Assembly: GCF_009882945.1 (NCBI RefSeq) | Contig: NZ_WTUY01000023.1 | Location: 1 to 64,000, forward strand | Length of the DNA: 64,000 nucleotides | From: Alcanivorax sp. DP30 | Lineage (GTDB): Bacteria > Pseudomonadota > Gammaproteobacteria > Pseudomonadales > Alcanivoracaceae | Direction of reading: 5' to 3' | Notes under the pieces: generated by a model | The model's input: the letters and a program-made list of their open reading frames with translations, nothing else | Told to the model about the DNA's origin: nothing | Databases searched by the model: none | Position numbers and translations under genes: made by a program | Shown: positions 1-63,934 of the stretch, one piece after another | Numbering within the stretch: the stretch's first letter is position 1 | Layout: the number at the start of each line of letters is the position of its first letter

Positions 1-91
1 AGAAGCTAGAAGCTAGAAGCTAGAAGCTAGAAGCTAGAAGCTAGAAGCTAGAAGCTAGAAGCTAGAAGCTAGAAGCTAGAAGCTAGAAGCT
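1..91. repeat. Heptanucleotide tandem array, 13 copies
   Basis: Thirteen perfect head-to-tail copies of AGAAGCT fill bases 1-91, starting at the window edge, so the array may continue to the left. It stops four bases before the stop codon of the Lrp-type gene. Read in another phase the unit is GCTAGAA. This differs by one base from the GCTACAA units that form the arms of the elements at 3430, 62785 and 63784, so I place it in the same family as an expanded array. A perfect array of this length is a likely slippage site. Confidence 0.95.
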
Positions 92-94
92 GTT

Positions 95-589
95 TCACAC
101 CTCAACATAATTCAACGGCAACGCCGCCGTATCCACCACTCGCCGCATGACAAAACTGGAATGCACGCCGCTGACACCTTCGATGCGGGTGATCTGGTTG
201 AGCAGGAAATGCTGGTAGGCGTCGATGTCTGGCACCACCACCTTCAGCAGATAATCCGCATCCTGGCCAGTGACCAGATAGCACTGCTGCACTTCCGGAA
301 AACTGGCCACCTTCTCCTCGAAATTGGCAAAGCGTTCCGGGGTGTGGCGATCCATGCTGATCTGGATCATCACCGTCAGGTCCAGCCCCAGCTTGCGGGC
401 ATCCAGTACGGTTTCCCGTTTGACGATGATGCCGGCGGCTTCCAGTTTCTGGACCCGTCGGGAACAGGGGGAGGGAGACAGGCCCACGGCGTCGGCCAGT
501 TGCTGGTTGGTCAGACCGCCATTGCCCTGCAGCGCTTCCAGAATCCGCAGGTCGGTACGGTCGAGTTTTGCCAGTTCGGAAGGTTTCAT
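95..589 (-). CDS. Lrp/AsnC family transcriptional regulator
   Basis: A 164-residue DNA-binding regulator of the leucine-responsive (Lrp/AsnC) family, which sense amino acids and usually act as octamers. An N-terminal winged helix-turn-helix covers about residues 8-60 (LDRTDLRILEALQ...LSPSPCSRRVQKLEAAGII). A C-terminal RAM ligand-binding domain follows (about 70-150, with the typical VTGQDADYLLKV strand). The length is normal for the family. It is divergent from leuA with about 300 bp between the starts, so control of leuA or of itself is plausible but not shown. Lrp itself, AsnC or another paralogue cannot be told apart from sequence alone, so no symbol is given. Confidence 0.93.
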   Translation of the reverse strand: MKPSELAKLDRTDLRILEALQGNGGLTNQQLADAVGLSPSPCSRRVQKLEAAGIIVKRETVLDARKLGLDLTVMIQISMDRHTPERFANFEEKVASFPEVQQCYLVTGQDADYLLKVVVPDIDAYQHFLLNQITRIEGVSGVHSSFVMRRVVDTAALPLNYVEV

Positions 590-846
590 GTGCTGAAAGT
601 CTCGCGGAAATCAATATTTGAGCAATGTTATTGCTTATAAAGCCGAAAAGGGCTGAAAAAAGCAAGCACATTGCCGGCACGGAGCCGTAAAGTATCTCTC
701 GTAGGGCGATGACGCAGACAGCCACAAGCCGGATGCCTCTCACCGTCGCTAACAGCACCTACCCGTGCCCTGATCGAGACCCGAGATCACATCGCAATTG
801 TTAGCCGCCGAGCAGTATCCCTGGGAGAGCCGGTTAGTAATTCTGG

Positions 847-867
847 GGGGCAGCTTCTGCCCCTTTT
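847..867 (+). terminator. Terminator-like hairpin just upstream of leuA
   Basis: A 7-bp stem GGGGCAG/CTGCCCC with a 3-nt loop is followed by TTTT and lies 18 bases before the leuA ATG, so it could act as an attenuator. The rest of the 590-885 gap shows no gene. A 30-codon frame from 709 has no run of leucine codons, so no classical leucine leader peptide is apparent. The leuA ribosome site AAGGA is at 874-878. Confidence 0.45.
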
Positions 868-885
868 CACGTTAAGGAATTCGAG

Positions 886-2571
886 ATGAGCTTTGATCAC
901 CGCAAATACCAGCCTTTTCCCGTTATCGACAAACCCGACCGTCGCTGGCCAAGCCAGCGTATCGAGAAAGCTCCCCTGTGGGCGGCGGTGGATCTGCGCG
1001 ACGGTAACCAGGCGCTGATCAAGCCCATGTCTGTGGCCCAGAAACGTCGCTTCTTCCAGATGCTGGTGGAGCTGGGCTTCAAGGAAATCGAGGTGGGCTT
1101 TCCTTCTGCCAGCCAGATCGACTTCGATTTCTGCCGCGCCTTGATCGAGGAAGATCTGGTGCCGGACGATGTGCACATCCAGGTGCTGACCCAGGCCCGG
1201 CAGGATTTGATTGCCCGTACCTTCGAGTCGTTGAAAGGCGCCAAAAACGCCATCGTGCATATTTACAACGCCACCTCGCCCACTTTCCGCGAGCAGGTGT
1301 TTTGCGTGGACAAGGCCGGCTGCAAGGCCATTGCCGAGCGTGCTGCCGGCTGGGTGAAGGAAGAGGCCGCGAAGCAGCCGGAGACACACTGGAGCTTCCA
1401 GTATTCGCCGGAGACCTTCAGCGCCACCGAGACCGATTTCGCCATCGAAGTGATCGATGCGGTGAACAACGTCTGGCGTCCGGATCAGGGCCAGCGGGTG
1501 ATCATCAACCTGCCCGCCACCGTGGAAGTCAGCACTCCCAATGTGTTTGCGGACCAGGTGGAGCTGGTCCACGAGAATATTCAGTACCGCGATGACGTGA
1601 TCATCAGCGTGCACACCCACGATGACCGTGGCTGTGGCGTGGCGGCTGCCGAAATGGCGGTGATGGCCGGGGCGGATCGTGTGGAAGGCACCTTGCTGGG
1701 CAACGGCGAGCGCACCGGGAACATGGACCTGGTGACCGCCGGCATGAACCTGTACAGCCAGGGCATCGATCCGGAAATTGATTTCTCCCGCATGAAGGAC
1801 ATTGTCGCCCTGGTGGAAGAAATTACTGACATCCAGACCCATCCGCGTCACCCCTATGCCGGTGATCTGGTGTTCAGTGCGTTTTCCGGCAGTCACCAGG
1901 ATGCCATTCGCAAATGCCTGGCCCGCTACCAGGAAGGCGATATCTGGAATGTGGCCTACCTGCCCATCGATCCGGCCGATGTGGGCCGTCGTTATGAGGA
2001 AGTGGTGCGCATCAATTCCCAGTCCGGCAAGGGCGGTGTGGCGCACGTGCTGGAGCGGGACTTTGGCATTGATCTGCCGCGCTGGTTGCAGCAGGAGCTG
2101 GCCGGTGTGGTCCAGAAGGATGCCGAGGAAGACGGGGGCGAGATCACCAGTGAGCGGGTACATCGTCGCTTCAACAGTGATTATTTGAATGTACCCATGG
2201 GCTGGGCATTGCGCTCCTATGATCTGAATCGCAACAACGACCAGGTGCAGGCGCAGATCAGTATTGGTGACGACAGCCAGGCCGTGACCCTGTTGTCAGG
2301 CCGCGGCGATGGAGCCATGTCTGCGTTGGTGGAAGCGCTCAATCGCCAGATCGGCAGCGAGGTAAAAGTGGTGTCCTTCGATGAGTATTCATTGGGCGAC
2401 AACACCGAAGCCAATGCCATGGCCTGTGTGCGGGTGCAGATTGGTGACTCGGTGCAAAGCGCTGTTGCCACCGCCGCCGACACCACCGCCGCTGCCCTGC
2501 AGGCGATTTTGTCTGCGGTCGGCAGGCTGGAGGAAGGCAGTGAGAGGCAATTGATAATTGAAAATGGATAA
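886..2571 (+). CDS. leuA: 2-isopropylmalate synthase
   Basis: Catalyses the first committed step of leucine biosynthesis: acetyl-CoA plus 2-ketoisovalerate give 2-isopropylmalate. The 561-residue product is the long LeuA type found in pseudomonads. The HMGL-like TIM barrel carries the catalytic LRDGNQ motif (about residues 37-42) and the metal-binding HTHDDRG motif. The C-terminal third is the LeuA allosteric domain for leucine feedback. The ATG at 886 follows AAGGA with good spacing. The last residues (QLIIENG) and the stop codon lie inside an inverted-repeat element, so the C-terminus has been shaped by that element. A strong terminator follows at 2614. It stands alone, with no leuB, C or D nearby. 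Confidence 0.97.
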   Translation: MSFDHRKYQPFPVIDKPDRRWPSQRIEKAPLWAAVDLRDGNQALIKPMSVAQKRRFFQMLVELGFKEIEVGFPSASQIDFDFCRALIEEDLVPDDVHIQVLTQARQDLIARTFESLKGAKNAIVHIYNATSPTFREQVFCVDKAGCKAIAERAAGWVKEEAAKQPETHWSFQYSPETFSATETDFAIEVIDAVNNVWRPDQGQRVIINLPATVEVSTPNVFADQVELVHENIQYRDDVIISVHTHDDRGCGVAAAEMAVMAGADRVEGTLLGNGERTGNMDLVTAGMNLYSQGIDPEIDFSRMKDIVALVEEITDIQTHPRHPYAGDLVFSAFSGSHQDAIRKCLARYQEGDIWNVAYLPIDPADVGRRYEEVVRINSQSGKGGVAHVLERDFGIDLPRWLQQELAGVVQKDAEEDGGEITSERVHRRFNSDYLNVPMGWALRSYDLNRNNDQVQAQISIGDDSQAVTLLSGRGDGAMSALVEALNRQIGSEVKVVSFDEYSLGDNTEANAMACVRVQIGDSVQSAVATAADTTAAALQAILSAVGRLEEGSERQLIIENG

Positions 2572-2711
2572 TTGATAACTGTCGCGGGGCAGCAATCCAC
2601 ACCCCGAGACGCAAGAGGCCGCGCCCATCGTATGGGCGCGGCCTCTTTGCTTTGAGAATCCCCAACGGCTAATTCGCGTCGCTATCAATTATCCATTTTC
2701 AATTATCAATT
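2549..2711. repeat. Inverted-repeat element with TTGATAA-type heptad arms
   Basis: Perfect 29-bp inverted arms at 2549-2577 and 2683-2711 enclose about 105 bp. The left arm reads as four 7-bp units (TTGATAA, TTGAAAA, TGGATAA, TTGATAA). The right arm is its reverse complement. The core contains the leuA terminator. The leuA stop codon (2569-2571) lies in the left arm and the stop codon of the convergent amidotransferase (2706-2708) lies in the right arm. A single arm of related sequence occurs at 30237. Confidence 0.9.
2614..2653. terminator. Rho-independent terminator between leuA and the amidotransferase
   Basis: A perfect 15-bp stem (AGAGGCCGCGCCCAT and its complement) with a 3-nt loop is followed by TTGCTTT. 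It sits between convergent genes and could end transcription from both sides, though the T-tract is better for leuA. Confidence 0.75.
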
Positions 2712-3407
2712 AATGCCCTGGCCCAGGAAGGCCCCCAACACCCTTCCCAGCAGTTGTTTTGCATCGTCAAACCGTTGCTCATCGCCCAGTAGTCGGGCCT
2801 TGTCTTCCACCCATTCCCCTTCGGTCAGATCCTCCGGGCAGGCCTCACACAGGTCGGCGGCATTGTTGTGTTCCAGTTCCAGGTGGAACTGCAGCGCCAG
2901 GACATGATCGCCGTAGCGGAAAGCCTGATTTCGGCAGCCTTTGCTTTCCAGCAAGTGCACCGCGCCTTTGGGAAGGGCAAAGGTGTCACCATGCCAGTGC
3001 AGCACTGTGGCGTGGGGGGCAAACAGTTTTCCGATGCTGTCATCCTTGCCGGCCGTGGTGGGGTAGACCGGAAACCAACCCACTTCTTTCTCGTCATTCG
3101 TGCTGACCTCAGCGCCCAATACCCGGGCAATCAATTGCGCGCCAAGGCAGATGCCAAGCACTTTCTTTCCCTGCGCAATGCAGGCCTTGATCAGGGCTTT
3201 CTCTGCCGCCATCCACGGAAAAAGAGCATCGTCATCGGCACCCATGGGGCCGCCCATGACCACCAGCACATCAAGGTCCTCCGGGGCAGGCAGGGAGTCG
3301 CCCCTGAACAACAGTGAATGGTTGATCTCCATGTCCCGCTGGCGGAACCAGGCTTCCATGGCGCCAAGTTGCTCAAAGGGAACATGGGAAAGGTAATGAA
3401 TACGCAT
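2706..3407 (-). CDS. Class I glutamine amidotransferase (GATase1-like)
   Basis: A 233-residue stand-alone glutaminase-type protein related to the GMP synthase amidotransferase subunit. The nucleophile elbow is GICLGAQ with Cys87, and the catalytic His175/Glu177 pair is in QFHLELE. The early GGPMG motif also fits. No synthetase domain is fused or adjacent, so the ammonia acceptor is unknown. Stand-alone members include proteins that act on glutathione-like or gamma-glutamyl substrates, but nothing here decides this. The final residues and stop lie in the right arm of the repeat element shared with leuA. Confidence 0.88.
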   Translation of the reverse strand: MRIHYLSHVPFEQLGAMEAWFRQRDMEINHSLLFRGDSLPAPEDLDVLVVMGGPMGADDDALFPWMAAEKALIKACIAQGKKVLGICLGAQLIARVLGAEVSTNDEKEVGWFPVYPTTAGKDDSIGKLFAPHATVLHWHGDTFALPKGAVHLLESKGCRNQAFRYGDHVLALQFHLELEHNNAADLCEACPEDLTEGEWVEDKARLLGDEQRFDDAKQLLGRVLGAFLGQGIN

Positions 3408-3429
3408 GGGAATCCCTTCCTCAAAATGC

Positions 3430-3576
3430 AGCTACAAGTTTCAAGCTACAACACGGATTGGTGACGGGGCTGATTCATCGCCGTGCCCGCGCACCAACGG
3501 TTATTGTTCGCGGGCACGGCGAGTCGGATCGCAAAGGCCTTCCCCGCGTTGCAGCTTGAGGCTTGTAGCTTGCATC
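3430..3576. repeat. Inverted-repeat element with GCTACAA/TTGTAGC heptad arms
   Basis: The left arm (3430-3450) has three 7-bp units, GCTACAA, GTTTCAA, GCTACAA. The right arm (3549-3576) has four, TTGCAGC, TTGAGGC, TTGTAGC, TTGCATC. The 98-bp core contains a perfect 14-bp GC-rich hairpin, with stems at 3478-3491 and 3509-3522. The element fills the gap between the lipoprotein gene and the amidotransferase gene, which share orientation. Confidence 0.88.
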
Positions 3577-3580
3577 TGCT

Positions 3581-4939
3581 TTATAGATACAGTGCCTGAA
3601 AGCTGGCGACGGGCTCGCCTTTGTCGTCAAACAACGTCAGCAGCTCACCCTCAATACGGTAATGATCGGTCTGATTCAGCGCCTCGTGGAAAGCCTGTTC
3701 TGTTTCCAGCGCCGGGCAGGCCATTTCAGTGCTGGTCAGGGACTGGAAGCGTAGCACGGCTTCCTCCTGTTGATAGCCGCCCTGAAAACCGTTGCAGCCA
3801 CCGTTGCCGCGGGCCTGGCCATCCGTGAACGTCAGATGTGGGGCGGCGCTGTCTGCGTCAGCATCCACGGCCTGCTCGCCAAGATGGGTCAGCACCCAAC
3901 GGGTGTTGGTCAGTTGGGCGCCGGGAATCTGGCAATCGGTGAAGGCGTTAACTTCGTCAAGGGTGTAGCTTTCCACCGCGACGGCGGCCTGGGTTGTGCC
4001 GTCCTGTTCGCCGGGGATCTTGCGGCGTATGCCGCTGATGGTGGCGATGCGCGGTTGCTGCGGATAGGCCATGACCTTGCGAATGTCGTCCACCAGTGCG
4101 GAGCCTTGAGGGCCGGATACCTGCAAGCGCTGATCGCTGTTACACAGGATGAATACCGGGTTGGCCCGTTGCCAGACCAGAGCACCACGCAGGGTCTCGC
4201 TGTCCGTCATGACCGGGTCCAGTGGCAGGGTGAGGGTGTCAAAGCCATCGCGATTGCGGGTCAGGTCGGTGTTTTGAGACTGAAAGAAAACGCCGCCGCC
4301 AGCAAGGATCTGGCTGCTGACCTGGTAATGCTTGTCCGTTTTCACCGCAGCCGCCGGATAATAGAGACGGAAGGAGGAGCGGTTGCCGTCCACATCCAGA
4401 CGAATTACACGGCGCAACACGATGTCATCATCCGCCAGCAGGGTAACAGTCAGCACCGCCTGATCGGGCAAGGTGGCATTCTCCGGCAGTTGCACCTGAC
4501 CGCTCAGATAACCGACGACAGCGTTGTCCCGTTCGAACGTCCCTGTGAACAGTGGTGTGCCGGGTTCATCCTGTGAGGTGTCGCTGTTGTCGGTGTCGGT
4601 GGGTTGCGTGGCGTCCTGGGCCGTCAGTGTCAGAGTGTCGCCCTGCTGCATGCCTTCAACGGTGCGTTGCTCAATACGGAGGGCATTGCTGTCCAGGTAG
4701 CGGAAGGTGAACTGATTGCCTTGTTGCTCCCAGCTGAGCCCCTGTCTCAGAGGGTCATTGGGCAGATAGAAATCGCCGTTGCTCTCCAGCACCAGCACCT
4801 GCTCAGCCTCAACCCAGACGCCGCTCAGCGGGTTTTCGCTGCTGGCCTCAGTGGCGGGGGCGGAAGTCGCTGGCTCACTGTCACCACAGCCAGACAGGGC
4901 CAGGGCGGCAGTGAGAAGGATAAGTGCATACTGCTTCAT
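3581..4939 (-). CDS. Lipoprotein with YbaY/YscW-like and META domains
   Basis: A 452-residue predicted lipoprotein. The signal peptide ends in the lipobox LSGC (Cys18). Residues about 38-115 form a small beta-rich domain. Residues about 130-240 resemble the YbaY/YscW (type III pilotin-like) fold with FTGTF...LTVTLLAD. Residues about 343-452 are a META/HslJ domain with the signature GNGGCNGFQGGY and the TSTEMACP motif. META proteins are envelope proteins tied to stress and heat-shock phenotypes, but the biochemical role is unknown. Its ATG overlaps the mtgA stop (ATGA, 4936-4939), so it is translated with mtgA and probably works in the periplasm or cell wall. Confidence 0.85.
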   Translation of the reverse strand: MKQYALILLTAALALSGCGDSEPATSAPATEASSENPLSGVWVEAEQVLVLESNGDFYLPNDPLRQGLSWEQQGNQFTFRYLDSNALRIEQRTVEGMQQGDTLTLTAQDATQPTDTDNSDTSQDEPGTPLFTGTFERDNAVVGYLSGQVQLPENATLPDQAVLTVTLLADDDIVLRRVIRLDVDGNRSSFRLYYPAAAVKTDKHYQVSSQILAGGGVFFQSQNTDLTRNRDGFDTLTLPLDPVMTDSETLRGALVWQRANPVFILCNSDQRLQVSGPQGSALVDDIRKVMAYPQQPRIATISGIRRKIPGEQDGTTQAAVAVESYTLDEVNAFTDCQIPGAQLTNTRWVLTHLGEQAVDADADSAAPHLTFTDGQARGNGGCNGFQGGYQQEEAVLRFQSLTSTEMACPALETEQAFHEALNQTDHYRIEGELLTLFDDKGEPVASFQALYL

Positions 4940-5859
4940 TGCGGGGTTCCTTGTTCGGGAAGAGCGGGTTCGCTGTCGTCGGTGTTGTCGGTTGCTGCAG
5001 CTGCAGTCCGGGAATCGTTACTGTCTGCAGCAGGGGCTGCGTCTGGTGGGTTATCGGAATGTTCGGTGGGGGCAGCCGCCACGGGGGCTTCAGTGCTGTC
5101 GGTGACCGGGGGCGCCAGTGGGGGCAGCGGTACCTCGGTGGGGTCGGGAATGGCCACCAGTCGCATCTGCCCCATGATCCAGTTGGCGCGTTCGTTCACG
5201 TAGTCGGATGGGCCGCGGAAATCGTATTGATTGGGTCTTGGCAGCATGGCAGCAAGCTGGGCTGCCTGCAGCGGCGTCAGGTCGGCAGCGCTGACACTGA
5301 AATAGTGTTGTGCGGCAGCTTCCGCGCCGTAGATCTGGTGTCCCCACTGGGCCATGTTCAGGTAAAGCTCGAAGATGCGTCGCTTGCTCAGGCCGGTTTC
5401 CAGCATCAGGGCAATCACTGCCTCCTTGCCCTTGCGCAGGTAGGAACGATCGCCGGAAAGGTACAGGTTCTTGGCCAGTTGCTGGGTAATGGTGGAGCCG
5501 CCAGCCACTGGCTTGCCGGCCTCCAGATTGCGTTTCAGGGCGTAGCGAATCCCTGGCCAGTCGAAACCGCCATGACGGGTGAACTGGGCGTCCTCGGAGA
5601 TCAGTACTGCCCGTTTCAGGTAGTCACTGATCTGGTCGTAATCACGCCAGTCATGGTTCACCTTGCCCTGCTCCTGGGCGCGGGACATATAGGCACTGTG
5701 GGTCGGATTATGGGTCTGCAGCCGCAGTGCCTGCCCCAGATACCAGAGCGGGTAAAGCGCTGCGACCATGGTCAGCAGTGCCATCAGCTTTAGCAGTCGT
5801 CGTTTAAACGTCATCACGGGTTCGGAATCAGGCCGAATTTCTCCATGCTTCAGAGGCAT
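4936..5859 (-). CDS. mtgA: Monofunctional biosynthetic peptidoglycan transglycosylase
   Basis: Polymerises glycan strands from lipid II at the inner membrane. A GT51 domain covers about residues 65-235, with catalytic Glu89 in ISEDAQF, the GGSTITQQLAKN motif (120-131) and the KRRIFELYLN motif. One transmembrane helix lies at about 20-42. Residues 237-307 are a Pro/Ala/Asp/Thr-rich disordered tail absent from typical MtgA of about 240 residues. A second start at 5814 (MTFKRR, just before the membrane helix) is equally possible, as neither has a clear ribosome site. It overlaps the downstream lipoprotein gene by four bases. Confidence 0.93.
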   Translation of the reverse strand: MPLKHGEIRPDSEPVMTFKRRLLKLMALLTMVAALYPLWYLGQALRLQTHNPTHSAYMSRAQEQGKVNHDWRDYDQISDYLKRAVLISEDAQFTRHGGFDWPGIRYALKRNLEAGKPVAGGSTITQQLAKNLYLSGDRSYLRKGKEAVIALMLETGLSKRRIFELYLNMAQWGHQIYGAEAAAQHYFSVSAADLTPLQAAQLAAMLPRPNQYDFRGPSDYVNERANWIMGQMRLVAIPDPTEVPLPPLAPPVTDSTEAPVAAAPTEHSDNPPDAAPAADSNDSRTAAAATDNTDDSEPALPEQGTPQ

Positions 5860-6059: not shown

Positions 6060-6132
6060 TTTACCAATTGCCGGGTTTCTCGCATTCTTGGTCCCGAAAC
6101 CCAAACAAGCCAACCTAGGGAGTTCTAACCAC

Positions 6133-6703: not shown

Positions 6704-6781
6704 GTCGGACGTCTGACGTCGGAAGTCTGACGCTAAAACCAGCTTGGTTTTGCGTCCGACGTCAGACCCCCGACGTCCGAC
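6704..6781. repeat. Inverted-repeat element with GTCNGAC heptad arms
   Basis: The left arm, 6704-6731, reads GTCGGAC, GTCTGAC, GTCGGAA, GTCTGAC. The right arm, 6754-6781, reads GTCCGAC, GTCAGAC, CCCCGAC, GTCCGAC, the imperfect complement. The 22-bp core contains the small palindrome AAAACCAgctTGGTTTT. It lies between ahpC and ahpF, where a folded RNA could set the ratio of the two transcripts. Confidence 0.88.
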
Positions 6782-21499: not shown

Positions 21500-21856
21500 T
21501 GGTGGAGCCGGCGGGAATCGAACCCGCGTCCGTCAGCAATCCATCTGCAGGTCTACATGCTTAGCCAAGTCTATTGCTTTAAGCCTTTACAACCCGACCG
21601 GCAGGACGTGAAGACCGAGCCCCTAAGAGTTTTAACAGCGCGATCCGGGGCGGACGTTGCTGCGAGCCTGTGTTGCGATGCTCGCCGCTCTTCCCCACAG
21701 GCAGGGTCGATTGGCGATAAGCAGGGATTAAGCTGCTAGTGCGTAAGAATCGTCGTTTGCGATTACTTTAATGTGCCACAAATGATTTACGAGACTCGTG
21801 ACCTTCTCGACATGCACCACAGAGTTCAATACCGGCGTCGAATCCAGGTCGGCCCC
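21500..21856 (-). ncRNA. ssrA: Transfer-messenger RNA (tmRNA)
   Basis: Rescues stalled ribosomes with SmpB. The minus strand begins GGGGCCGACCTGGATTCGAC and ends GGTTCGATTCCCGCCGGCTCCACCA. These are the tRNA-like ends, with the acceptor stem and CCA encoded. The internal reading frame starts at a GCA resume codon and gives the degradation tag ANDDSYALAA followed by TAA (stop at 21729-21731). The Pseudomonas tag is ANDDNYALAA and the E. coli tag is ANDENYALAA, so a Ser replaces Asn here. The length of 357 nt is normal. smpB is 700 bp away. Confidence 0.97.
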
Positions 21857-29946: not shown

Positions 29947-29955
29947 GGACTACAG

Positions 29956-30112
29956 TAGGAGCGCCTCTTGAGGCGCGAACAACCCCTGGGAGCGAGTGAC
30001 TGGTTCGAGTAACGAAAAACCTTCAGACAGTGCCTGCAGAGGGTTTTTCCTTTCGAAACTCGCTCTTCGCAACTCGAAACGGGGTTGTTTGCGCCTCAAG
30101 AGGCGCTCCTAC
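29956..30112. repeat. REP-like palindrome pair in inverted orientation (REPIN-like)
   Basis: A 32-bp sequence beginning GTAGGAGCGCCTCTTGAGGC (29955-29986), itself containing the palindrome GCGCCTCTTGAGGCGC, is repeated in inverted orientation at 30081-30112. Between them a nested inverted repeat (GAAAAACC and GGTTTTTC) lies. The GTAGGAGCG core resembles Pseudomonas REP sequences, and two such units facing each other match the REPIN layout. A partial relative (GGAGAAGCAAGCTCC) is at about 30141. The whole 29947-30346 gap has no gene. Confidence 0.82.
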
Positions 30113-30236
30113 AGCGCGTCCCGGGCGCAATCGGGCTTCAGGAGAAGCAAGCTCCCACAGGGAGCATGCGATGCAAATCCGCGCTCGGAGCGCGACCAGT
30201 CCCCTTTCAGCTCTCACCCAACTCGCCCGCGAGCTA

Positions 30237-30259
30237 TCCATTATCAATTGTCCATTGCC
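30237..30259. repeat. Single heptad arm related to the leuA element
   Basis: TATCCAT, TATCAAT, TGTCCAT and a further TG. This is the TTGATAA heptad family on the other strand, without a visible partner arm. It sits just before the grpE heat-shock promoter. Confidence 0.6.
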
Positions 30260-30268
30260 CCTCTCCCC

Positions 30269-30933: not shown

Positions 30934-31020
30934 GTCGGGCGTCTGAGGTCGGAGGTCAGACGCCCATAGGGCCGGTTTTCGGGTTTTGACGTCCGACCTC
31001 CGACTCCCGACGTCTGACCC
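30934..31020. repeat. Inverted-repeat element with GTCNGAC heptad arms
   Basis: Left arm 30934-30961: GTCGGGC, GTCTGAG, GTCGGAG, GTCAGAC. Right arm 30988-31015: GACGTCC, GACCTCC, GACTCCC, GACGTCT, the inverted form. The core of 26 bp includes GCCCataGGGC. It lies between the grpE stop and the dnaK promoter, where it may act as terminator or transcript end. Confidence 0.88.
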
Positions 31021-31055
31021 GCTGAAAATGGCAACAAACAAAATCTTCACGCTCC

Positions 31056-31084
31056 CTTGAATTGGCAAAAACCACCGCCATATA
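31056..31084 (+). promoter_or_regulatory. Sigma-32 heat-shock promoter of dnaK
   Basis: -35 CTTGAA (31056-31061), 13-bp spacer, -10 CCGCCATATA (31075-31084), near-consensus. The start would be about 31092, giving a 70-base leader before the dnaK ATG at 31162, which is preceded by GAAGGAG. Confidence 0.82.
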
Positions 31085-31161
31085 GGAGCCAGACGAGTTA
31101 ACAAGTTCAACTGTCCGGTATGCCGATAGGGTGCCGGCTGGTGTGAAGGAGAAAGAGAGAC

Positions 31162-33087: not shown

Positions 33088-33096
33088 GGGAAAGGC

Positions 33097-33124
33097 GTCG
33101 GACGTCAGACGTCGGACGTCAGAT
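33097..33124. repeat. Single GTCNGAC heptad arm between dnaK and dnaJ
   Basis: Four units, GTCGGAC, GTCAGAC, GTCGGAC, GTCAGAT, alternate perfectly. No second arm is present. Instead a GC hairpin (CGCCGGGC with GCCCGGCG, about 33130-33153) follows. Confidence 0.85.
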
Positions 33125-35700: not shown

Positions 35701-36621
<921 letters not shown>

Positions 36622-36641
36622 GGTCTGAGTCAATAATTGGC

Positions 36642-36694
36642 CGCAGGAGCCTGTCTGCAGGCGATTATCGCTTGCAGGCAAGCTCCTGCGGCGG
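36642..36694. repeat. Long REP-like palindrome between dapB and carA
   Basis: Arms GCCGCAGGAGC (start 36642) and GCTCCTGCGGC (end 36694), with an inner near-palindrome around TGCAGGCGATTATCGCTTGCA, make one tall hairpin. It resembles the GGAGC-type REP at 29956. It could end dapB transcription or protect the mRNA end. Confidence 0.75.
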
Positions 36695-38063: not shown

Positions 38064-38067
38064 AAGC

Positions 38068-38124
38068 GTCTGACGTCCGACGTCTGACGTCCGACGCAAA
38101 GACAACCGCAACATACGTCTGACG
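38068..38124. repeat. GTCNGAC heptad array between carA and carB
   Basis: Four perfect alternating units, GTCTGAC, GTCCGAC, GTCTGAC, GTCCGAC (38068-38095), with one more GTCTGAC at 38118. No full inverted second arm exists. Because GTCNGAC units are partly self-complementary (GACGTC), an array alone can fold. Confidence 0.85.
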
Positions 38125-55672: not shown

Positions 55673-55751
55673 CACGGCCTGGAAGTAACGACGGCAGCTA
55701 TAAATATGCATGGCTGGCCGTGACATTCATTGTGCATATTGGAGAAACATC

Positions 55752-56021
55752 ATGGCGTTGAGCGCTGAACAGAAAGCTGAGATCCTGAAAGAGCACGGCC
55801 AGAAAGAAGGCGATACCGGTTCTCCGGAAGTGCAGGTTGCCCTGCTGACCGCCAACATCAATGGTCTGCAAGGTCACTTCAAGGACCACAAGAAGGATCA
55901 CCACAGCCGTCGCGGCCTGATCCGCATGGTAAACCAGCGTCGTAAGCTGCTGGACTACCTGGCCAAGAAAGACCGCACCCGTTACCTGCAGCTGATCGAG
56001 AAGCTGGGTCTGCGTCGTTAA
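55752..56021 (+). CDS. rpsO: 30S ribosomal protein S15
   Basis: An 89-residue primary 16S rRNA-binding protein of the subunit platform. The family core is [49 protein letters not shown]. The ATG at 55752 gives the standard length. An mRNA pseudoknot for autoregulation is expected but was not traced. Confidence 0.98.
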
Positions 56022-56297: not shown

Positions 56298-58391
56298 ATG
56301 TTCAATAAAATCACCAAAGAAATTCAGTTCGGCCGTGACACGGTTATCCTGGAAACCGGGCAGATTGCCCGCCAGGCGACTGCTGCTGTCATGGTTCGCA
56401 TCGGTGCCACCGAAGTGCTGGTTACCGTCGTTGGCAAGAAAGAAGCAGATCCCAGCAAGAACTTTTTCCCCCTGACTGTGAACTATCAGGAAAAGACTTA
56501 CGCCGCGGGCCGTATCCCGGGTGGCTTCCTCAAGCGTGAAGGTCGTCCCAGCGAGAAAGAAACCCTGACCTGTCGTCTGATCGACCGTCCGATCCGTCCG
56601 CTGTTCCCCAATGGCTTCATGAATGAAGTACAGGTTGTGGCCACGGTCATGTCTGTGGACAAGGAAAATGATCCGGATATCGCCGCCATGATCGGCACCT
56701 CCGCAGCCCTGTCCATCTCCGGCATTCCGTTCAGCGGTCCTATTGGTGCCGCCCGTGTGGGTTTCAAGGATGGCATGTACATCCTAAACCCGAGCTACGC
56801 CGAGCTGGCCGAGTCTGCACTGGATCTGGTGGTAGCCGGTACCGAGCCTGCAGTACTGATGGTGGAATCCGAAGCCAAAGAACTGTCTGAAGACCAGATG
56901 CTGGGCGCTGTCCTGTTCGGCCACATGGAAATGCAGCCGGTGATCCAGGGTATCAAGGAATTTGCCGCTGAAGTGGGCACTCCGACCTGGGACTGGACCG
57001 CACCTGCGGTGAACACCGAACTGAAAGACGCCATCAAGGCCAAATACGAAGGCGCTCTGGCCGATGCCTACACCATCACCGAGAAGATGGCCCGTTACGC
57101 CAAGGTCGGCGAGCTGCGTGATGCCTGCGTTGCCGAGTTCGCCACTGGCGAAGAAGGCGCACCGGACGCCGGTGAAGTGAAGGGCCTGTTTGCCAAGGTC
57201 GAGAAGAACGTGGTCCGTGAAGCCGTAGTCTCCGGCAAGCCGCGTATCGATGGTCGTGCCCTGGACGCGGTTCGTGCAATCGACTGTCAGGTGGGCGCGC
57301 TGGCCAAGACCCACGGTTCTGCCCTGTTCACCCGTGGTGAAACCCAGGCCATCGTGGCTGCCACTCTTGGCGGCATGCGCGATGCCCAGTTCATCGACGC
57401 GCTGGAAGGATCCCGCCAGGATCACTTCATGCTGCACTACAACTTCCCTCCTTACTGCGTGGGCGAGACCGGCATGATCGGCTCTCCGAAGCGTCGTGAG
57501 ATTGGTCACGGCCGTCTGGCCCGCCGTGGTGTTCAGGCGGTGCTGCCCACGGTGCAGGATTTCCCCTACACCATCCGTGTGGTGTCCGAGATCACCGAGT
57601 CCAACGGTTCCTCCTCCATGGCCTCCGTGTGTGGTACCTCCATGGCGCTGATGGATGCGGGTGTTCCCCTGACCGCACCGGTTGCCGGTATTGCCATGGG
57701 TCTGGTGAAGGAAGAGGACGGTCGTTTCGCGGTACTGTCCGACATTCTGGGTGACGAAGATCACCTGGGCGATATGGACTTTAAAGTGGCCGGTACCGAG
57801 CGTGGTGTGACTGCCTTGCAGATGGACATCAAGATCGAGGGCATCACCGAAGAGATCATGGAGAAAGCGCTGGAGCAAGCCAATGCCGGTCGTCTTCATA
57901 TCCTCGGCGAAATGGCCAAGGCCATTGGTGCCTCCCGTACCGAGGTGTCCGAGAATGCCCCGACCCTGCTGACCCTGAAGATCAACCCGGACAAGATCCG
58001 TGACGTGATCGGCAAGGGTGGCGCTACCATCCGTGCCCTGACCGAAGAAACCGGCTGTACCATCGACATCGAAGACGATGGCAGCGTGAAGATCTACGGT
58101 GAGACTCGCGAGAAGGCGGATGAAGCGGTACGCCGTGTGGAAGAAATCACTGCGGAAGCGGAAGTCGGCGTGATCTACGAAGGCAAGGTAACCCGCGTGG
58201 TTGATTTCGGCGCCTTTGTCGCCATCATGCCGGGCACTGAAGGTCTGCTGCACATCTCCCAGATCGCTGAAGAGCGTGTGGAGAAAGTGAGTGACTACGT
58301 CAACGAGGGCGACATCATCAAGGTGAAGGTTCTCGACGTAGACCAGCGTGGCCGCATCAAGCTGTCCATGAAGGAAGCCAAGGAAGACTGA
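56298..58391 (+). CDS. pnp: Polyribonucleotide nucleotidyltransferase (PNPase)
   Basis: A 3'-5' phosphorolytic RNA exonuclease of the degradosome. 697 residues. Two RNase PH-like domains (first about 10-140, second about 310-540, with the active-site segment [12 protein letters not shown]), a helical linker, a KH domain ([25 protein letters not shown]) and an S1 domain ([34 protein letters not shown]). The length is standard. Confidence 0.98.
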
Positions 58392-58415
58392 TTTCGATCG
58401 GTTTTACCGAAGCAT

Positions 58416-58446
58416 AAAAAAGGCCGGCATTTGCCGGCCTTTTTTA
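58416..58446 (+). terminator. Rho-independent terminator after pnp
   Basis: Stem AAAAGGCCGGCA / TGCCGGCCTTTT with two-base loop and T6. Confidence 0.93.
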
Positions 58447-58563
58447 TGAGATAAAAGTTATGAATGGAGGGCCGGAATCCATTTTGCAAATGAAATAAAT
58501 TGCTTCCTGTACTAGAATTTCAGCCCGTTTTTATTGTGGCTGTCTATCTAAAAAGAGGGAATT

Positions 58564-59121
58564 ATGAGAAGGATAATTGGGGGAGTTGTGGTTCTGGTCG
58601 GCCTGCTGTCGTCAGGTTGTGCATCGATCGTTTCTGATTCAAGTTACCCGGTTACGATTAGTTCTTCTCCAGAGGGGGTCAACTATACGGTCAAGCATGC
58701 CAAAAGAGGGTATGCCATGATGAAGGGTGTTACTCCTGCGACGATTTCACTTTCTGCGGATGATGGCTTTTTCTCAAAAGCCAGTTACCTGGTTTCCTTT
58801 GAAAAAAGGGGCTATGACGCCGTAACCATCCAGCTCAGAGCAGGGATGGACGGATGGTATGTTGGCAATATTCTGTTTGGGGGATTGATCGGCTTCTTGA
58901 TTATTGATCCCGCCACTGGCGCGATGTGGAAGCTCGACGAGCAAGTGCAAGTCGCTCTGACAGAAAGCCGGAAGGAAGATGCGGGTGAGACAGTTGAGTT
59001 CAGAGAGAAAGAGCCGGAGCAGCCCGAAACTGCCGCGGGCAAGGACTCCGATGAGTTAACCCTGCTTATGATTAATGATGTGCCGGAGGCGTACAGGAAT
59101 AGCCTGGTGCGCGTTAATTAA
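58564..59121 (+). CDS. Putative PEGA-like lipoprotein
   Basis: A 185-residue predicted lipoprotein (signal peptide, lipobox LSSGC at Cys19). The mature part has a beta-rich stretch (YPVTISSSPEGVNYTVKH...GVTPATISLSADDG) like PEGA surface domains, then a hydrophobic glycine-rich segment (GWYVGNILFGGLIGFLIIDPATGAMWKL). The C-terminus is acidic and polar. Such envelope proteins exist in many gammaproteobacteria without known function. The base composition is lower in GC than pnp and acs around it. It has its own terminator. Confidence 0.72.
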   Translation: MRRIIGGVVVLVGLLSSGCASIVSDSSYPVTISSSPEGVNYTVKHAKRGYAMMKGVTPATISLSADDGFFSKASYLVSFEKRGYDAVTIQLRAGMDGWYVGNILFGGLIGFLIIDPATGAMWKLDEQVQVALTESRKEDAGETVEFREKEPEQPETAAGKDSDELTLLMINDVPEAYRNSLVRVN

Positions 59122-59150
59122 AAAAAGGGCCAGCAGTGCTGGCCCTTTTA
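59122..59150. terminator. Bidirectional terminator between the lipoprotein and acs
   Basis: Palindrome AAAGGGCCAGCA / TGCTGGCCCTTT with a one-base centre and A-rich and T-rich flanks. It serves both convergent genes. Confidence 0.9.
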
Positions 59151-59160
59151 ATATCTGACT

Positions 59161-61098
59161 TCACCTGTTCAGTCGCGTCTCAATCAGCTGATCGACTACG
59201 CTTGGGTCGGCGAGGGTTGAGGTGTCTCCCAGGCTGTCCAGTTCGTTGGCGGCAATCTTGCGAAGAATGCGGCGCATGATCTTGCCGGAACGGGTCTTGG
59301 GCAGGCCCGGGGCGAAGTGAATCAGGTCGGGTTTGGCGATGGGGCCAATTTCCTGGGTGACCATGTCACGCAGCTCCTTCACCAGTTCATCGCTACCTTC
59401 CTTGCCCGCCATGAGAGACACATAGGCGTAGATGCCCTGGCCCTTCACGTCGTGCTGGTAACCCACAACTGCCGCCTCGGAAATGCTCGGGTGCAGTACC
59501 AGGGCTGATTCAATTTCGGCGGTACCAAGACGATGGCCTGATACATTCAGCACGTCATCCACACGGCCAGTGATCCAGTAGTAGCCATCTTCATCACGTC
59601 GGGCGCCATCACCGGTGAAGTAGTAGCCCTTGTAGGCACTGAAGTAGGTATCGATCATGCGCTGGTGATCACCGTAGACGGTGCGGATCTGGCTGGGCCA
59701 GCTGGACTTGATCGCCAGGTTGCCTGAATTGGCGCCTTCCAGTTCATTGCCATCCGGGTCCATCAGTACTGGTTCGATGCCGAACATGGGCAGGGTGGCG
59801 GAGCCGGCTTTCAGGTCCACGGCGCCGGGCAGCGGAGCAATCATGATGGCGCCGGTTTCGGTCTGCCACCAGGTATCCACGATGGGGCAGCGAGAGTCGC
59901 CCACGATCTTGTAGTACCACTCCCAGGCTTCCGGGTTGATGGGTTCACCGACGGTGCCCAGCAGTTTGAGGGAGGCACGTGAGGTCTTTGTCACCGGATC
60001 GTTGCCCACGCCCATCAGGGCGCGGATGGCAGTGGGCGCAGTATAGAAGATGTTGACCTTGTGCTTGTCCACCACCTGCCAGCAGCGGGAGGCATCCGGA
60101 TAGGTGGGCACCCCTTCGAACATCAGGGTGGTTGCGCCGTTGGCCAGCGGGCCGTAGACAATATAGCTGTGTCCGGTGATCCAGCCCACGTCCGCCGTAC
60201 ACCAGTAGATGTCGCCTTCGTGATAATCGAACACATACTTGTGGGTGAGAGCGGCGCTGAGCAAGTAGCCGGCGCTGGTGTGGACCACGCCCTTGGGTTT
60301 GCCGGTGGAGCCGGAGGTGTAGAGGGTAAAGAGCGCATCTTCCGCGTCCACCCATTCCGGTTCGCAATCGCTGGCAGCGTTGGCCATGGCTTCGTGATAC
60401 CAGACATCGCGGTCGCTCTGCCAGGCTACATTGCCACCGGTGCGCTTCACGGTAATACAGGTATGAACGCCGTTGATGCCATCCATGGCCTTGTCGGCGT
60501 TGACCTTGAGGGGCACGGTCTTGCCGCCGCGGACACCTTCGTCGGCGGTGATCACGGCACAGGCGCCGGCATCATTGATGCGATCCTTGAGGGCTTCTGG
60601 CGAGAAGCCACCGAACACCACAGAATGAATGGCGCCAATGCGGGCGCAGGCCAGCATGGCGTAGGCGGCTTCCGGGATCATCGGCATATAGATGACAACA
60701 CGGTCGCCTTTTTCGACGCCACGATCCTTGAGTACATTACCGAACTTGCTGACTTCCTCGAACAACTGCTGGTAGCTGATGTGTTTGTCCTGATCCGGCT
60801 CGTCGCCTTCCCAGATGATGGCAGTCTGGTTGGCGCGCTCGGGCAGGTGGCGATCCACACAGTTGTAGCAGACGTTCAGCGTCGCACCCTTGAACCAGGC
60901 GGCACGGCCTTCGTTAAAGTCCCAGTCGCTGACGGTGTCCCACGGTGTTTTCCAGTCCAGAAACTCGTTGGCGCGATCCGCCCAGAAGGTATCCGGGTCG
61001 TTGATGGACTGCGCGTACAGGCGATCGTAGCGCTCGCGGTCCATCAGGGTTTGCGCCTTAAAAGCTTCGGGAACAGGGTGGACTATGGGCTTGGACAT
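59161..61098 (-). CDS. acs: Acetyl-coenzyme A synthetase
   Basis: Activates acetate to acetyl-CoA via acetyl-AMP, important for growth on acetate and alkane-derived acids. 645 residues from [13 protein letters not shown], with GGAGG before the ATG. The P-loop-like motif is [14 protein letters not shown], the A8 hinge is [20 protein letters not shown], and the acetylated Lys is in [15 protein letters not shown]. The open frame upstream is not family-like. Confidence 0.97.
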
Positions 61099-61385
61099 CA
61101 AGGGCCTCCTTGGAATACTGCCTCTGGGTGCCAGGTTGGCGCCCGTTTTTCCTTCATTATTGTGAGTATCTCGTTCCTCGACTATTCCACCATGGTCGTA
61201 GGGCGCAGAGAGAACGAAACCGGTTGTCACAAGAGTAAACAAAGCGTTGAGTAATGGCCAAGGTCCATTGCGGAAAGCTGCACAAAACGGTGATTTTTTG
61301 GGCTTGTCGGGGAGAAAAAAAGCGGAGCCAAACGAATGCTGCCCAGCCGAGAGCGGCAAGGTGACCGTGAAACCAGACATAAAAA
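61099..61385. other. acs upstream region
   Basis: About 290 bp without a gene. It contains the acs promoter on the minus strand, which I could not place with confidence. No repeat element is seen. Confidence 0.4.
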
Positions 61386-61412
61386 AAACGCCGGCAAAAG
61401 CCGGCGTTTTAA
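61386..61412. terminator. Terminator downstream of panD
   Basis: Stem ACGCCGGC / GCCGGCGT with an AAAA loop, flanked by A8 on the left (T8 on the minus strand), so it ends panD transcription 27 bases after its stop. Confidence 0.88.
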
Positions 61413-61438
61413 GAAAATCCTTTCGAACGGATCTGGTA

Positions 61439-61819
61439 TCAGGCGACCTGAACCGGAATCGCGTTGCTGGTGCCTTTTACGGCATTGCCTTCATCCATGT
61501 AGATCAGGCTGGGCTTGAAGTTGACCAGTTCGGCGCTGGAGTAGCTGGCGTAGGCGCAAATGATCACACGGTGACCAGGTTGTGCCTTATGTGCAGCTGC
61601 ACCATTCACAGAAATGATCTTGGATCCGGCTTCGCCACGGATTGCGTAGGTTTCGAAACGCTCACCGTTGTCGATGTTGTATATCTGGATCTGTTCGTAC
61701 TCCAGGATACCCGCCATGTCCATCAGATCACCATCGATGGCGCAGGAGCCTTCATACTCGAGCTCCGCGTGGGTGACACGAGCCTGATGGAGTTTTGCTT
61801 TCAGCATGGTGCACTGCAT
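61439..61819 (-). CDS. panD: Aspartate 1-decarboxylase
   Basis: Decarboxylates aspartate to beta-alanine for pantothenate. A 126-residue proenzyme. Self-cleavage is between Gly24 and Ser25 in YEGSCAID, making the pyruvoyl group. It starts [21 protein letters not shown], and the four residues before MLKAK match the Pseudomonas start. It stands close to panC on the same strand. Confidence 0.97.
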
Positions 61820-61907
61820 CTTGGTTACCTCTCACACTACCCGAAGCCTGCAATTACAGGACGTTAGAACCAAGCAGGCGCTTCAAGGGGCCCGAAGTAT
61901 GCACGAA

Positions 61908-62765
61908 TCACGGGTTGTCTACAACGGCCAGTGAGACATTGTCTATCAATCGTGTTTTGCCCAGTTTGGCGGCTACAGCAACCACCAGATCGGTGTCGTT
62001 TTTGGCCGCTGGCGCCAGGCTGCTGGCGTTGGCAATGGTCAGGTAATCCACCTGGAAGCCTGCGGTATTGAGCCGCTCTGTATAGCGTTGTTCCAGATTG
62101 CGGAAGTCCCGCGCTCCTTGCTCAATGTCGCTGCGCAGCTTTTGCAGGTTTGCGTAGATGAGCGGGGCAAGTTTGCGCTCACTCTCGTCAAGAAAGCCAT
62201 TTCGCGAGCTTTTTGCCAGCCCGTCGTCTTCACGGCTGGTGGGGGCGCCGACAATCTTTACCGGGAACAGTAACTCTTCACTCATTCGCCGCAGAATTGC
62301 CAGTTGTTGGAAGTCCTTCTCCCCAAATACGGCCACATCCGGCTGGACAATATTGAACAGCTTGGAGACCACCGTGGTCACGCCACGGAAATGCCCCTCT
62401 CGGTTGGCTCCACACAGGTAATCACCCAGACCCTCCACGTCTACCCAGGTCTGGTTCTGGCCAAGCGGGTAGATTTCCTCCACAGAGGGGGCAAACAACA
62501 GGGCTGCGCCCGCATCCACCAGCTGGGCGGCATCCGCGTCCAGGGTGCGGGGGTAGCGGTCGAAATCCTCATTGGGGCCGAACTGGGTTGGATTGACAAA
62601 GATGGACACGACCACCTTGTCGCAACGGGCCATGGCCTCGCGAACCAGACTGATATGGCCGCTGTGGAGATTGCCCATGGTGGGCACAAACCCCACGCTC
62701 AGGCCTTCGCGGTGCCAGCCGCGAACCACTTCGCGGACCTGGGAAACGGTATGGGCAGTTTGCAT
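61908..62765 (-). CDS. panC: Pantothenate synthetase
   Basis: Joins pantoate and beta-alanine with ATP. 285 residues from MQTAHTVSQVREVVRGW. HIGH-like motif GNLHSGHISLV, FVNPTQFGPNEDF, GLxDYLCGANREGHFRGVTTVV, and the KMSKS-like region SREDDGLAKSSRN. An upstream in-frame ATG at 62798 falls within the heptad element and is unlikely. Confidence 0.97.
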   Translation of the reverse strand: MQTAHTVSQVREVVRGWHREGLSVGFVPTMGNLHSGHISLVREAMARCDKVVVSIFVNPTQFGPNEDFDRYPRTLDADAAQLVDAGAALLFAPSVEEIYPLGQNQTWVDVEGLGDYLCGANREGHFRGVTTVVSKLFNIVQPDVAVFGEKDFQQLAILRRMSEELLFPVKIVGAPTSREDDGLAKSSRNGFLDESERKLAPLIYANLQKLRSDIEQGARDFRNLEQRYTERLNTAGFQVDYLTIANASSLAPAAKNDTDLVVAVAAKLGKTRLIDNVSLAVVDNP

Positions 62766-62784
62766 TGAAAACCTCGGTGAATAA

Positions 62785-62959
62785 GCGACAAGCTGCAAGC
62801 TTCAAGCTACAAGGCGCGGGTGAGGGCGGCGCCAACTGACAGGCGACATTGCCCGCGTTTCTTTGCCAGGAATAATTTACTGGCATTTGTGCGCGGCTCC
62901 AGACAATGAAGATTCCGTGTTCGGATCCGCGTTGTAGCTTGAGGCTTTTAGCTTGTTGC
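62785..62959. repeat. Inverted-repeat element with GCTNCAA heptad arms (panC-panB)
   Basis: Left arm 62785-62812: GCGACAA, GCTGCAA, GCTTCAA, GCTACAA. Right arm 62932-62959: TTGTAGC, TTGAGGC, TTTTAGC, TTGTTGC. The core of 119 bp contains TGCCAG/CTGGCA around an AT loop (near 62862-62885). It fills the panB-panC gap completely. Confidence 0.9.
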
Positions 62960-62964
62960 TGATT

Positions 62965-63753
62965 TTAGAAACAGTGCTCGTCCGCCGGGAAACTGACGTT
63001 CAGTACGGCTTCATGATACGCCTTGAAGGCGCTCTGGATATCGCTGGCGTCGGCCATGAAGTTTTTCACAAAGCGGGCAGGTTTGCCGGGGCTGATGCCG
63101 AGCATATCGTGCATGACCAGCACCTGGCCGTCGCATTCCGGGGCGGCGCCAATGCCGATGACCGGGATGCCTACCGCCTGGGTGATGCGGGTGCTCAGCT
63201 CGCGGGGCACGCATTCCAGCAACAGCACGGCGGCACCGGCCTGCTCAAGGGTTTGCGCGGCTTTCAGCATTTCACTGGCGCTGTCATCGTCTTTGCCCTG
63301 TACCCGGTAGCCGCCCAATGCGTTTACCGCCTGGGGGGTGAGGCCCATGTGGGCGCATACCGGGATACCGTTACGGTTGAGTAGTTCGATGCTTTCCGCC
63401 AGCCAGGCACTGCCTTCCAGTTTGACCATGTTGGCGCCGGCCTGCATCAGGGCGGTGGAGCTTTCCAGGGCGCGCTCCACGGTGGCCGCGCCCATGAACG
63501 GCACGTCGGCGATGACCAGGCTGCCTTTATTGCCGCGGGCCACGCATTCAGTGTGATAAGCCATCTGTTCGAGGGTCACCGGCACAGTGCTGGACTGACC
63601 CTGGATCACATTGCCCAGGGAGTCACCCACCAGTATGGCGTCCACGCCGGCTTCGGAAATCAGCTGGGCGAAACAGGCATCGTAGGCGGTGAGAACGGAG
63701 AATTTTTCACCGTCTTGCTTGCGCTTCTGCAGGGTGCGAATGGTCACGGACAT
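62965..63753 (-). CDS. panB: 3-methyl-2-oxobutanoate hydroxymethyltransferase
   Basis: Makes ketopantoate from 2-ketoisovalerate and methylene-tetrahydrofolate. 262 residues from [18 protein letters not shown]. Mg-binding Asp in [12 protein letters not shown], the ADVPFMG motif, and [17 protein letters not shown]. The in-frame upstream codons lie in the repeat element, so the start at 63753 is preferred. The pan genes run panB-panC-panD on the minus strand, interrupted by a heptad element. Confidence 0.97.
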
Positions 63754-63783
63754 GGGAAACCTCCCAGGGAAATTCAGGGGCGA

Positions 63784-63934
63784 GCTACAAGCTGCAAGCT
63801 TCAAGCTACAACACGATCAAGGTTGTCAGGGTTTACTGCTTTTGTGGCCGCGCACAGGGTCTGGTCGCGGCGCCATGCCTGGCAGGGCAGTAAACGACTT
63901 CTTGCGTTGTAGCTTGAAGCTTGTAGCTTGCAGC
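63784..63934. repeat. Inverted-repeat element with GCTNCAA heptad arms (upstream of panB)
   Basis: Left arm 63784-63811: GCTACAA, GCTGCAA, GCTTCAA, GCTACAA. Right arm 63907-63934: TTGTAGC, TTGAAGC, TTGTAGC, TTGCAGC. The 95-bp core contains inner arms GTTTACTGC (about 63832) and GCAGTAAAC (about 63888). It shares its arms with the panC-panB element but not its core sequence. Confidence 0.92.

Follow-up and report, generated by a model that had tools for sequence, protein, structure and literature searches.

Seven-base units in inverted arms: intergenic elements of Alcanivorax whose two arms change unit family together at orthologous sites

Alcanivorax sp. DP30 carries between its genes small elements built from two inverted arms of tandem seven-base units (heptads) around a core. 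They were described in a 64,000-nucleotide stretch (hereafter the window; NZ_WTUY01000023.1, contig 17 of a 3.62 Mb genome in 24 contigs), where an earlier note had proposed that they were either structures at mRNA ends or non-autonomous mobile elements. Comparison across the genus shows that both arms switch unit family together at two tested orthologous sites, which we call X and Y. This paired change of units points to mobile elements with an unusual heptad end structure, and our tentative interpretation, to which we give somewhat less than even credence, is that heptad elements are small, non-autonomous elements resembling miniature inverted-repeat transposable elements (MITEs) and specialised for the 3′ ends of genes. 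The earlier interpretation as a whole is partly supported.

Periodicity was assessed in segments of 21 columns with at least 16 matches at a shift of p bases, segments with N being discarded. The sample comprised the window with 20 systematic 20-kb stretches of the same genome (464 kb together) and 400 kb each from two other genomes of the genus, G012 and G004. Period 7 gave 25, 49 and 28 intergenic segments in the three samples respectively and periods 4–6 and 8–13 gave 0–2 apiece; the harmonic at period 14 gave 9, 19 and 20. Period 7 thus exceeds periods 6 and 8, the neighbours with which the earlier note had proposed to compare it. Another 13, 42 and 8 segments of period 7 fell within crudely called open reading frames (ORFs) and were excluded from these counts; some are plainly spacers, including elements of the window. 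Arms had been said usually to hold four units, which is fair in that 137 of the 165 arrays in the three samples span four or five, given a detector floor of four units that renders shorter arrays invisible; 20 of the 165 span 7–25. Several Alcanivorax records also bear heptad arrays. E. coli K-12 yielded no period-7 segment in the 200 kb scanned, and a sample of 20 genomes from the class (340 kb) yielded one intergenic array (L427) and two inside ORFs; hence the trait is patchy. Three consecutive GTCNGAC units occur in two of 274 genomes of the class, our own included, and the reversed pattern in none. Universality, considered as a candidate, was therefore rejected.

Inverted pairs of arms were sought in nine sets of stretches, one of which had been picked for holding known units, and arrays longer than 70 bp were not used as seeds. 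The search found 107 pairs, which we sorted, with templates set by eye, into 11 unit families: GCTNCAA (22 pairs), AATNGAT (13), GTCNGAC (12), AGTNAAC (12), GTTNAAA (11), GCNNCAC (8), GCTNCGA (8), GCCNGAC (7), GTTNCAA (6), AATNAAT (5) and GTTNCGA (3). The unit can be read as three bases, a free base and three bases. A shared period without shared sequence, as originally suggested, is thus borne out by 11 families in one genus, many of them a single substitution apart, and chimeric arms occur (for example L155:19630). An element consists of a core between two inverted arms, each of about four heptads, and the polarity of the units toward the core is constant in all 95 elements in which it can be read, the 12 with palindromic GTCNGAC units being left out. 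The core measures 85–115 bp in 53 of the 85 elements of eight families, and is shorter than 70 bp in 17 of the 22 elements of GTCNGAC, GCCNGAC and GTTNCGA. Long single GCTACRA arrays were also seen (L164:15712-15819, L300:2077-2257, L185:1910-1971), which end in a border resembling GCTACGCT-GATTGGA; in some copies a stretch of the form GGCCGAAA..GTTCCC comes next. These arrays look like a separate, one-sided class.

The fourth base of the unit behaves differently from the rest. Adjacent units differ there in 61–84% of comparisons, depending on family, and in no more than 30% at 51 of the 66 other family positions, a contrast that is partly built in, since position 4 was left free when the families were set up by eye. 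Neighbouring units carry the same letter at position 4 in 154 of 594 cases, against 238.3 ± 11.2 in 2000 shuffles (lowest 203), in a set from which arrays longer than 70 bp are absent; identical neighbours may slip and be lost, which would deplete shared letters. Between the two arms of an element, position 4 is not matched beyond register-optimised shuffles in six of ten families, which favours recognition of the unit over plain pairing or copying.

Where orthologous gaps have intact flanks, genomes differ in the presence of an element and also in its unit family. Inspected by eye, the site at 62785 has arms of GCTNCAA, GTTNCAA, GTTNAAA, GCNNCAC, GTTNCGA or a GCTNCTA-like unit according to species, and in genome G002 a 16-bp gap with no element. 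The arms at 63784 are GCTNCAA in some species, GTTNCAA in G005 and GTTNAAA in others, and two genomes retain a 51-bp remnant. Site X was extracted from 16 of 17 genomes, 15 of which hold a whole or partial element, G002 having a longer, unrelated gap; site Y was extracted from all 17, of which 16 hold an element (one degenerate, one part-masked) and G003 a repeat of the repetitive extragenic palindromic (REP) type. For X, 11 genomes were compared (four longer than 260 bp and one with fewer than 22 matches were dropped) and for Y, 13 (one masked, two with fewer than 22 matches and one without a heptad element were dropped). An arm matches the other arm of its own element at 0.89 and 0.93 (X and Y), against 0.74 and 0.79 across genomes; the own-arm values are raised because arms were first picked for best pairing, and the excess was reached by 1 and 0 of 2000 permutations. 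The permutation test replaced counts of two-sided changes, which depend on the register. Unit families switch in place, and the elements are not one mutated family of ordinary descent, the outcome that the earlier note had named as fatal to its idea.

Elements also change orientation, and the two halves of an element can be of different origin. The core at 2549 is inverted between G000 and G011, and the element at X between G003 and G011 at 95% identity; at Y, three of the 16 elements point one way and nine the other, three are mixed and one is unscored. Between carA and carB, five of the 14 genomes extracted have the same four alternating GTCNGAC units, eight a different hairpin, and G002 an inverted element. 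A whole element has been replaced between G003 and G016, which are about 96% identical, and alleles of the grpE-dnaK gap have been exchanged between G006 and G009, which are about 97% identical. The latter two also differ in length by 7 bp and, at Y, by 21 bp (174 vs 153 bp), the Y arm of identical GTTAACA units being 21 bp longer in G006. As a separate observation, other palindromic repeats likewise swap in the same gaps between G003 and G016 (L319-L320 vs L325-L326).

In the window itself all seven of the inverted elements named by the earlier note were recovered by an arm-pairing script, so that these structures are real. Its single arms were also found again, two by Tandem Repeats Finder (TRF) and one as a period-7 segment. 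The features of the window are as follows.

2549..2711: full AATNGAT (AATTGATA) element of 163 bp, arms identical at 29 of 29 positions, core 105 bp (arm-pairing script)
3430..3570: GCTNCAA element, core 97 bp (arm-pairing script)
6704..6781: GTCNGAC element, core 18 bp (arm-pairing script)
30934..31018: GTCNGAC element between grpE and dnaK (arm-pairing script: 30934-31011, core 28 bp)
35704..35771: GCCNGAC element, core 18 bp (arm-pairing script)
62780..62964: GCTNCAA element, core 111 bp (arm-pairing script)
63783..63935: GCTNCAA element, core 93 bp (arm-pairing script)
30235..30262: solo right arm of the AATNGAT family, with CGCG on its inner side (period-7 segment; the arm first placed at 30237)
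33096..33123: single GTCNGAC array of four units followed by a hairpin, between dnaK and dnaJ (TRF)
38067..38096: single GTCNGAC array of four alternating units, between carA and carB (TRF)
about 29985..30095: element with GTTNCGA arms, overlooked in the earlier note (approximate, by eye)
1..91: long homogeneous array, AGAAGCT x 13, at the contig end (TRF)

Pfam domains support the flanking genes (GrpE, HSP70 for dnaK, dnaJ, and CPSase domains for carA and carB). The element at 2549..2711 fills its gap up to the stop codon of a convergent gene with a GATase domain, the site at 3430..3570 is filled or short in relatives, the element at 6704..6781 is present in four and absent from 11 of the 15 genomes extracted, and the grpE-dnaK element is present in three of 17. 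The length of the grpE-dnaK gap (window 31020-31161) differs among the 17 genomes; downstream of the variable part stands a conserved motif of the type CTTGAA...CCGCCATATAG, which reads GCGCCATATAG in some genomes and is presumably a sigma-32 type promoter. By eye, a REP-type inverted repeat (GTAGGAGCGCCTCTTGAGGCGCG) at about 29953-30113 encloses the GTTNCGA element, so that two kinds of element can nest, and another REP-type hairpin, which matches other places in the genus, stands at 36640-36692 in the gap after 36621. Draft contigs begin inside long homogeneous heptad arrays at window 1-91 and in contigs C15 and C18 of G000 (GCTACAA arrays); such arrays may thus cause assembly breaks. Rfam gave four matches in the window above the gathering score, none of them on a heptad element; they include a tmRNA gene (21500-21856, minus strand) and a ribosomal S15 leader (55690-55808, plus strand).

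The AATNGAT family has the traits of a dispersed element. An alignment of 26 copies has sharp ends, and the flanks are unrelated across copies, except for our own and L226, which occupy the same site, and for L353 and L354. Twenty-four copies align at 79% mean identity in the order arm, CGCG, variable spacer, GAGGCCGCG..CGCGGCCTC hairpin, variable spacer, CGCG, arm, with arms, CGCG columns and the terminator-like central hairpin conserved. The element at 2549 recurs in the genus with its core, at 73–90% identity among the matches listed, and the statement that cores share no sequence, even between elements with the same arms, consequently fails for this family. Genome G003 has 37 arms of the family per strand at no more than two mismatches (6 and 4 for a reversed-pattern control), and of the 37 forward arms, 31 are joined by a reverse arm no more than 200 bp away, in 22 cases at 121–134 bp. 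On the strength of these 31 pairings, which leave six forward arms unpaired, large autonomous copies were rejected as a candidate in G003. Terminal inverted repeats, a length of 70–300 bp, absence of coding sequence, dispersal and unrelated flanks are all traits of MITEs found in this family, and its dispersed full-length copies bear out the suggestion of non-autonomous mobile-element behaviour. In all 23 copies outside the window an ORF of more than 200 nt ends within 25 nt of one end, and in 20 of the 23 this is true of the other end also, which is partly automatic because stops lie inside the A/T-rich arms.

Placement supports the other half of the original proposal, a location at mRNA ends. 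Of the 107 elements, 96 have a called gene on each side, nine do not, and two lie inside a call; the claim that all lie between genes is judged here from crude gene calls. Measured from the start of an arm, the median distance is 4 bp to a stop codon (quartiles 0 and 12; n=112) and 45 bp to a start codon (n=80). The 96 elements comprise 66 co-directional, 23 convergent and seven divergent contexts, against 472, 145 and 165 respectively among 782 background gaps of 60–600 bp. In-arm stops add to the proximity of stops in the A/T-rich families and not in GCTNCAA. Heptads as stop signals in all frames were rejected: the idea applies only to A/T-rich families, and 40 of 44 GCTNCAA arms lack a sense stop.

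The interpretation that we tentatively favour would run as follows. Each heptad would serve as a recognition unit in which two triplets flank a free base, some four such units making up an end, and a putative trans-acting recombinase or strand-exchange factor would bind the heptads at both ends; both ends would therefore have to carry the same unit. Copies would insert beside stop codons without target duplication, and such insertions would be tolerable because the elements may serve as bidirectional terminators and mRNA ends. Overwriting and rearrangement by recombination (half-swaps, inversions) would follow, elements may drift between unit families, and slippage in steps of seven could gain or lose units.

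Several observations weigh against this interpretation. The check for target duplication that the earlier note had recommended found none, either in 21 AATTGATA copies (mean 1.14, against 1.53 in permutations) or in the 107 pairs (2.78 against 2.79). Some DNA transposons make no target duplication. No transposase was identified in our own genome, where only Y1_Tnp (PF01797) was searched. A single protein could hardly read 11 unit families. Among the eight longer-core families 39 of 85 elements have CGCG or GCGC at both inner borders, as against none of the 22 in the other three, so that such a border is no general feature. Nine of the 11 families vary most at position 4, but GTCNGAC varies more at position 7 and AATNAAT at position 2. 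In four of ten families the two arms of an element agree at position 4 beyond shuffles, at most 13 of 1000 reaching the observed match. Arms of two families coexist within single elements (L361, G014 at 2549, G013 at X). Finally, X and Y hold an element almost everywhere in the genus, and overwriting of old residents may therefore explain more than insertion. Elements of the RAYT or TIRYT type were rejected as a candidate identity: the three PF01797 matches of our own genome are all unflanked by heptad arms, one of them having a heptad element about 0.8 kb away. The REP/REPIN tag (GTAG/GGAG or CGTC) is absent from the ends of the 24-copy AATTGATA alignment, as it is, judged by eye only, from the other families.

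Much of the same evidence could be read as concerted evolution without any transposase, in which long-lived hairpins at gene ends are overwritten again and again, through ectopic gene conversion, hairpin-templated correction, the exchange of alleles between species and seven-base slippage steps, and nothing recognises the heptad. We consider this rather doubtful as the whole account. Chimeric elements and inversions, the replacement between G003 and G016, the grpE-dnaK exchange and the steps of 7 and 21 bp between G006 and G009 all agree with it, as does the filling of X and Y almost genus-wide. The right halves of X and Y in G006 share 57 identical bases, yet this case is single: other genomes share at most 33 between the two sites, and unlike genomes, G006/G009 apart, up to 40. 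Core identity between X and Y is 0.77 within genomes (n=11) and 0.74 between them (n=181), so weak a difference that within-genome homogenisation of these cores was rejected. Copying should moreover homogenise position 4, yet the arms are unmatched there in most families, and the family-specificity of the other unit positions is left unexplained. Selection on RNA is a further alternative, which we judge unlikely: the elements would be functional mRNA 3′-end modules, selection for stem-loops after the stop or for bidirectional terminators keeping the arms paired, with mobility secondary. It accords with the short distance to stop codons, the terminator-like hairpin of the AATTGATA family, the presence of other hairpins in the same gaps of relatives, and the very stable folds of the seven inverted window elements, every one of which folds better than shuffled sequence (z between −4.4 and −11.0, against 60 dinucleotide shuffles per element). 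Pairing, however, needs no resemblance among the units of one arm. RNAalifold pairs the arms and hairpin of the AATTGATA family in 44 base pairs, only eight of which have two-sided changes, with a covariation term near zero (−0.07). In the mRNA sense of 54 co-directional elements there are 43 G.U-type and 36 A.C-type mismatches, no clear excess on gene calls cruder than those of the placement analysis, and selection on RNA alone was set aside as unsupported by this strand comparison.

The most sweeping alternative is that the ends are a re-writable code, read by a recombination or strand-exchange machine that takes DNA ends or single-stranded DNA seven bases at a time (two triplets separated by a skipped base) without fixed sequence preference of its own; any self-consistent heptad could then give rise to a family. 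We hold it to be decidedly unlikely; if true, it would explain the many unit families per genome and the concerted in-place switching of both ends, as well as inverted heptad pairs with other units in records that bear the names Planctomycetota, Armatimonadetes, Gemmatimonadetes and Peptococcaceae. Least probable, in our estimation, is ordinary simple-sequence slippage, under which the arrays are short cases of the heptanucleotide, the commonest long bacterial simple sequence repeat (SSR) in most genomes (Mrazek 2007, as reported in PMC4679880). The arrays of 7–25 units, many homogeneous and some at contig ends, suit it, and homogeneous arms do slip in nature (G006/G009). Slippage does not make inverted arms of constant polarity, and neighbours share position 4 less often than in shuffles, the opposite of fresh duplication; that test is not decisive, because its set excluded arrays longer than 70 bp and because identical units, being unstable, may be lost. 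Arms as slippage arrays were accordingly rejected for their diversified position 4 and inverted partners; long homogeneous arrays may qualify. More than one of these alternatives may hold at once, and recombination very likely plays a part, whatever spread the elements in the first place.

Conserved end sequences are what normally defines a small mobile element, whereas heptad elements keep the period and layout of their ends while the sequence changes, in both arms at once. An enzyme that reads such ends, if there is one, must follow a rule rather than a fixed motif; if there is none, the elements are a natural record of slippage, inversion and recombination remodelling the ends of genes. Either way, they stand at the 3′ ends of many genes of the genus, with a bearing on termination, mRNA ends and the breaks in draft assemblies.

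Beyond the genus, the pattern of three GTCNGAC units matches at least 118 loci, in records whose titles name Planctomycetota, Armatimonadetes, Gemmatimonadetes, Peptococcaceae, Streptomyces and others. A scan of these loci at a threshold of 17 of 21, coding sequence included, found 200 period-7 segments among the matches listed, against 4–6 each at periods 4, 5, 8, 10, 11 and 13, 14–21 at periods 6, 9 and 12, and 106 at period 14. Sixty-four of the 200 lack the GTC motif (two being runs of N), many with quite different units. There are 46 inverted pairs in 37 of the 118 loci, again among the matches listed; in a null region 2 kb away, available for loci of at least 5 kb, seven arrays still found a partner, so that some pairs beyond the genus are chance. 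Every one of these loci was picked because it has a heptad array, and the scan therefore shows that families co-occur, not how prevalent they are.

No description of inverted heptad elements was found in the literature, in a search that was mostly superficial and covered subscription journals thinly. Cyanobacterial STRR sequences are long heptanucleotide repeats. Comparisons below refer to those parts of the cited papers on which we draw. Long heptanucleotide SSRs (Mrazek 2007, per PMC4679880; Xanthomonas and Nostoc, PMC4692102) share the period of seven and form long homogeneous arrays, unlike most arrays here, which are short, diversified at one position and paired in inverted orientation; a 2025 survey (PMC12699852) reports no average enrichment of short tandem repeats in bacteria, and no heptamer term was found in its main text. 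The TAACTGA repeats of Beggiatoaceae, cyanobacteria and Bacteroidetes (MacGregor 2015, PMC4679880) are likewise intergenic heptamers in distant phyla; they differ in being direct, in having one unit sequence and in lying, in one genome, mostly just upstream of starts. REPs and REPINs, associated with RAYT tyrosine transposases (Bertels and Rainey 2011, PMC3116915; Di Nocera 2013, PMC3733652), resemble heptad elements as dispersed intergenic inverted doublets that form hairpins, mostly 3′ of genes, with several families per genome, and differ in that AATTGATA ends are without the GTAG or CGTC tag, the arms are tandem heptads and the three Y1 matches are unflanked. TIRtrons and TIR repeat families (Di Nocera 2013, PMC3733652) likewise have terminal inverted repeats, which occur as dispersed families too; unlike the arms of heptad elements, those repeats flank a transposase gene, and a heptad structure is not among the features described for them there. 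MITEs such as RUP, NEMIS, ERIC and Nezha (PMC3733652) are likewise 70–300 bp long, non-coding and gene-adjacent, with inverted ends of 15–30 bp, and heptad elements depart from them in having no target duplication and no parent element found, and in ends that change sequence yet hold a seven-base period.

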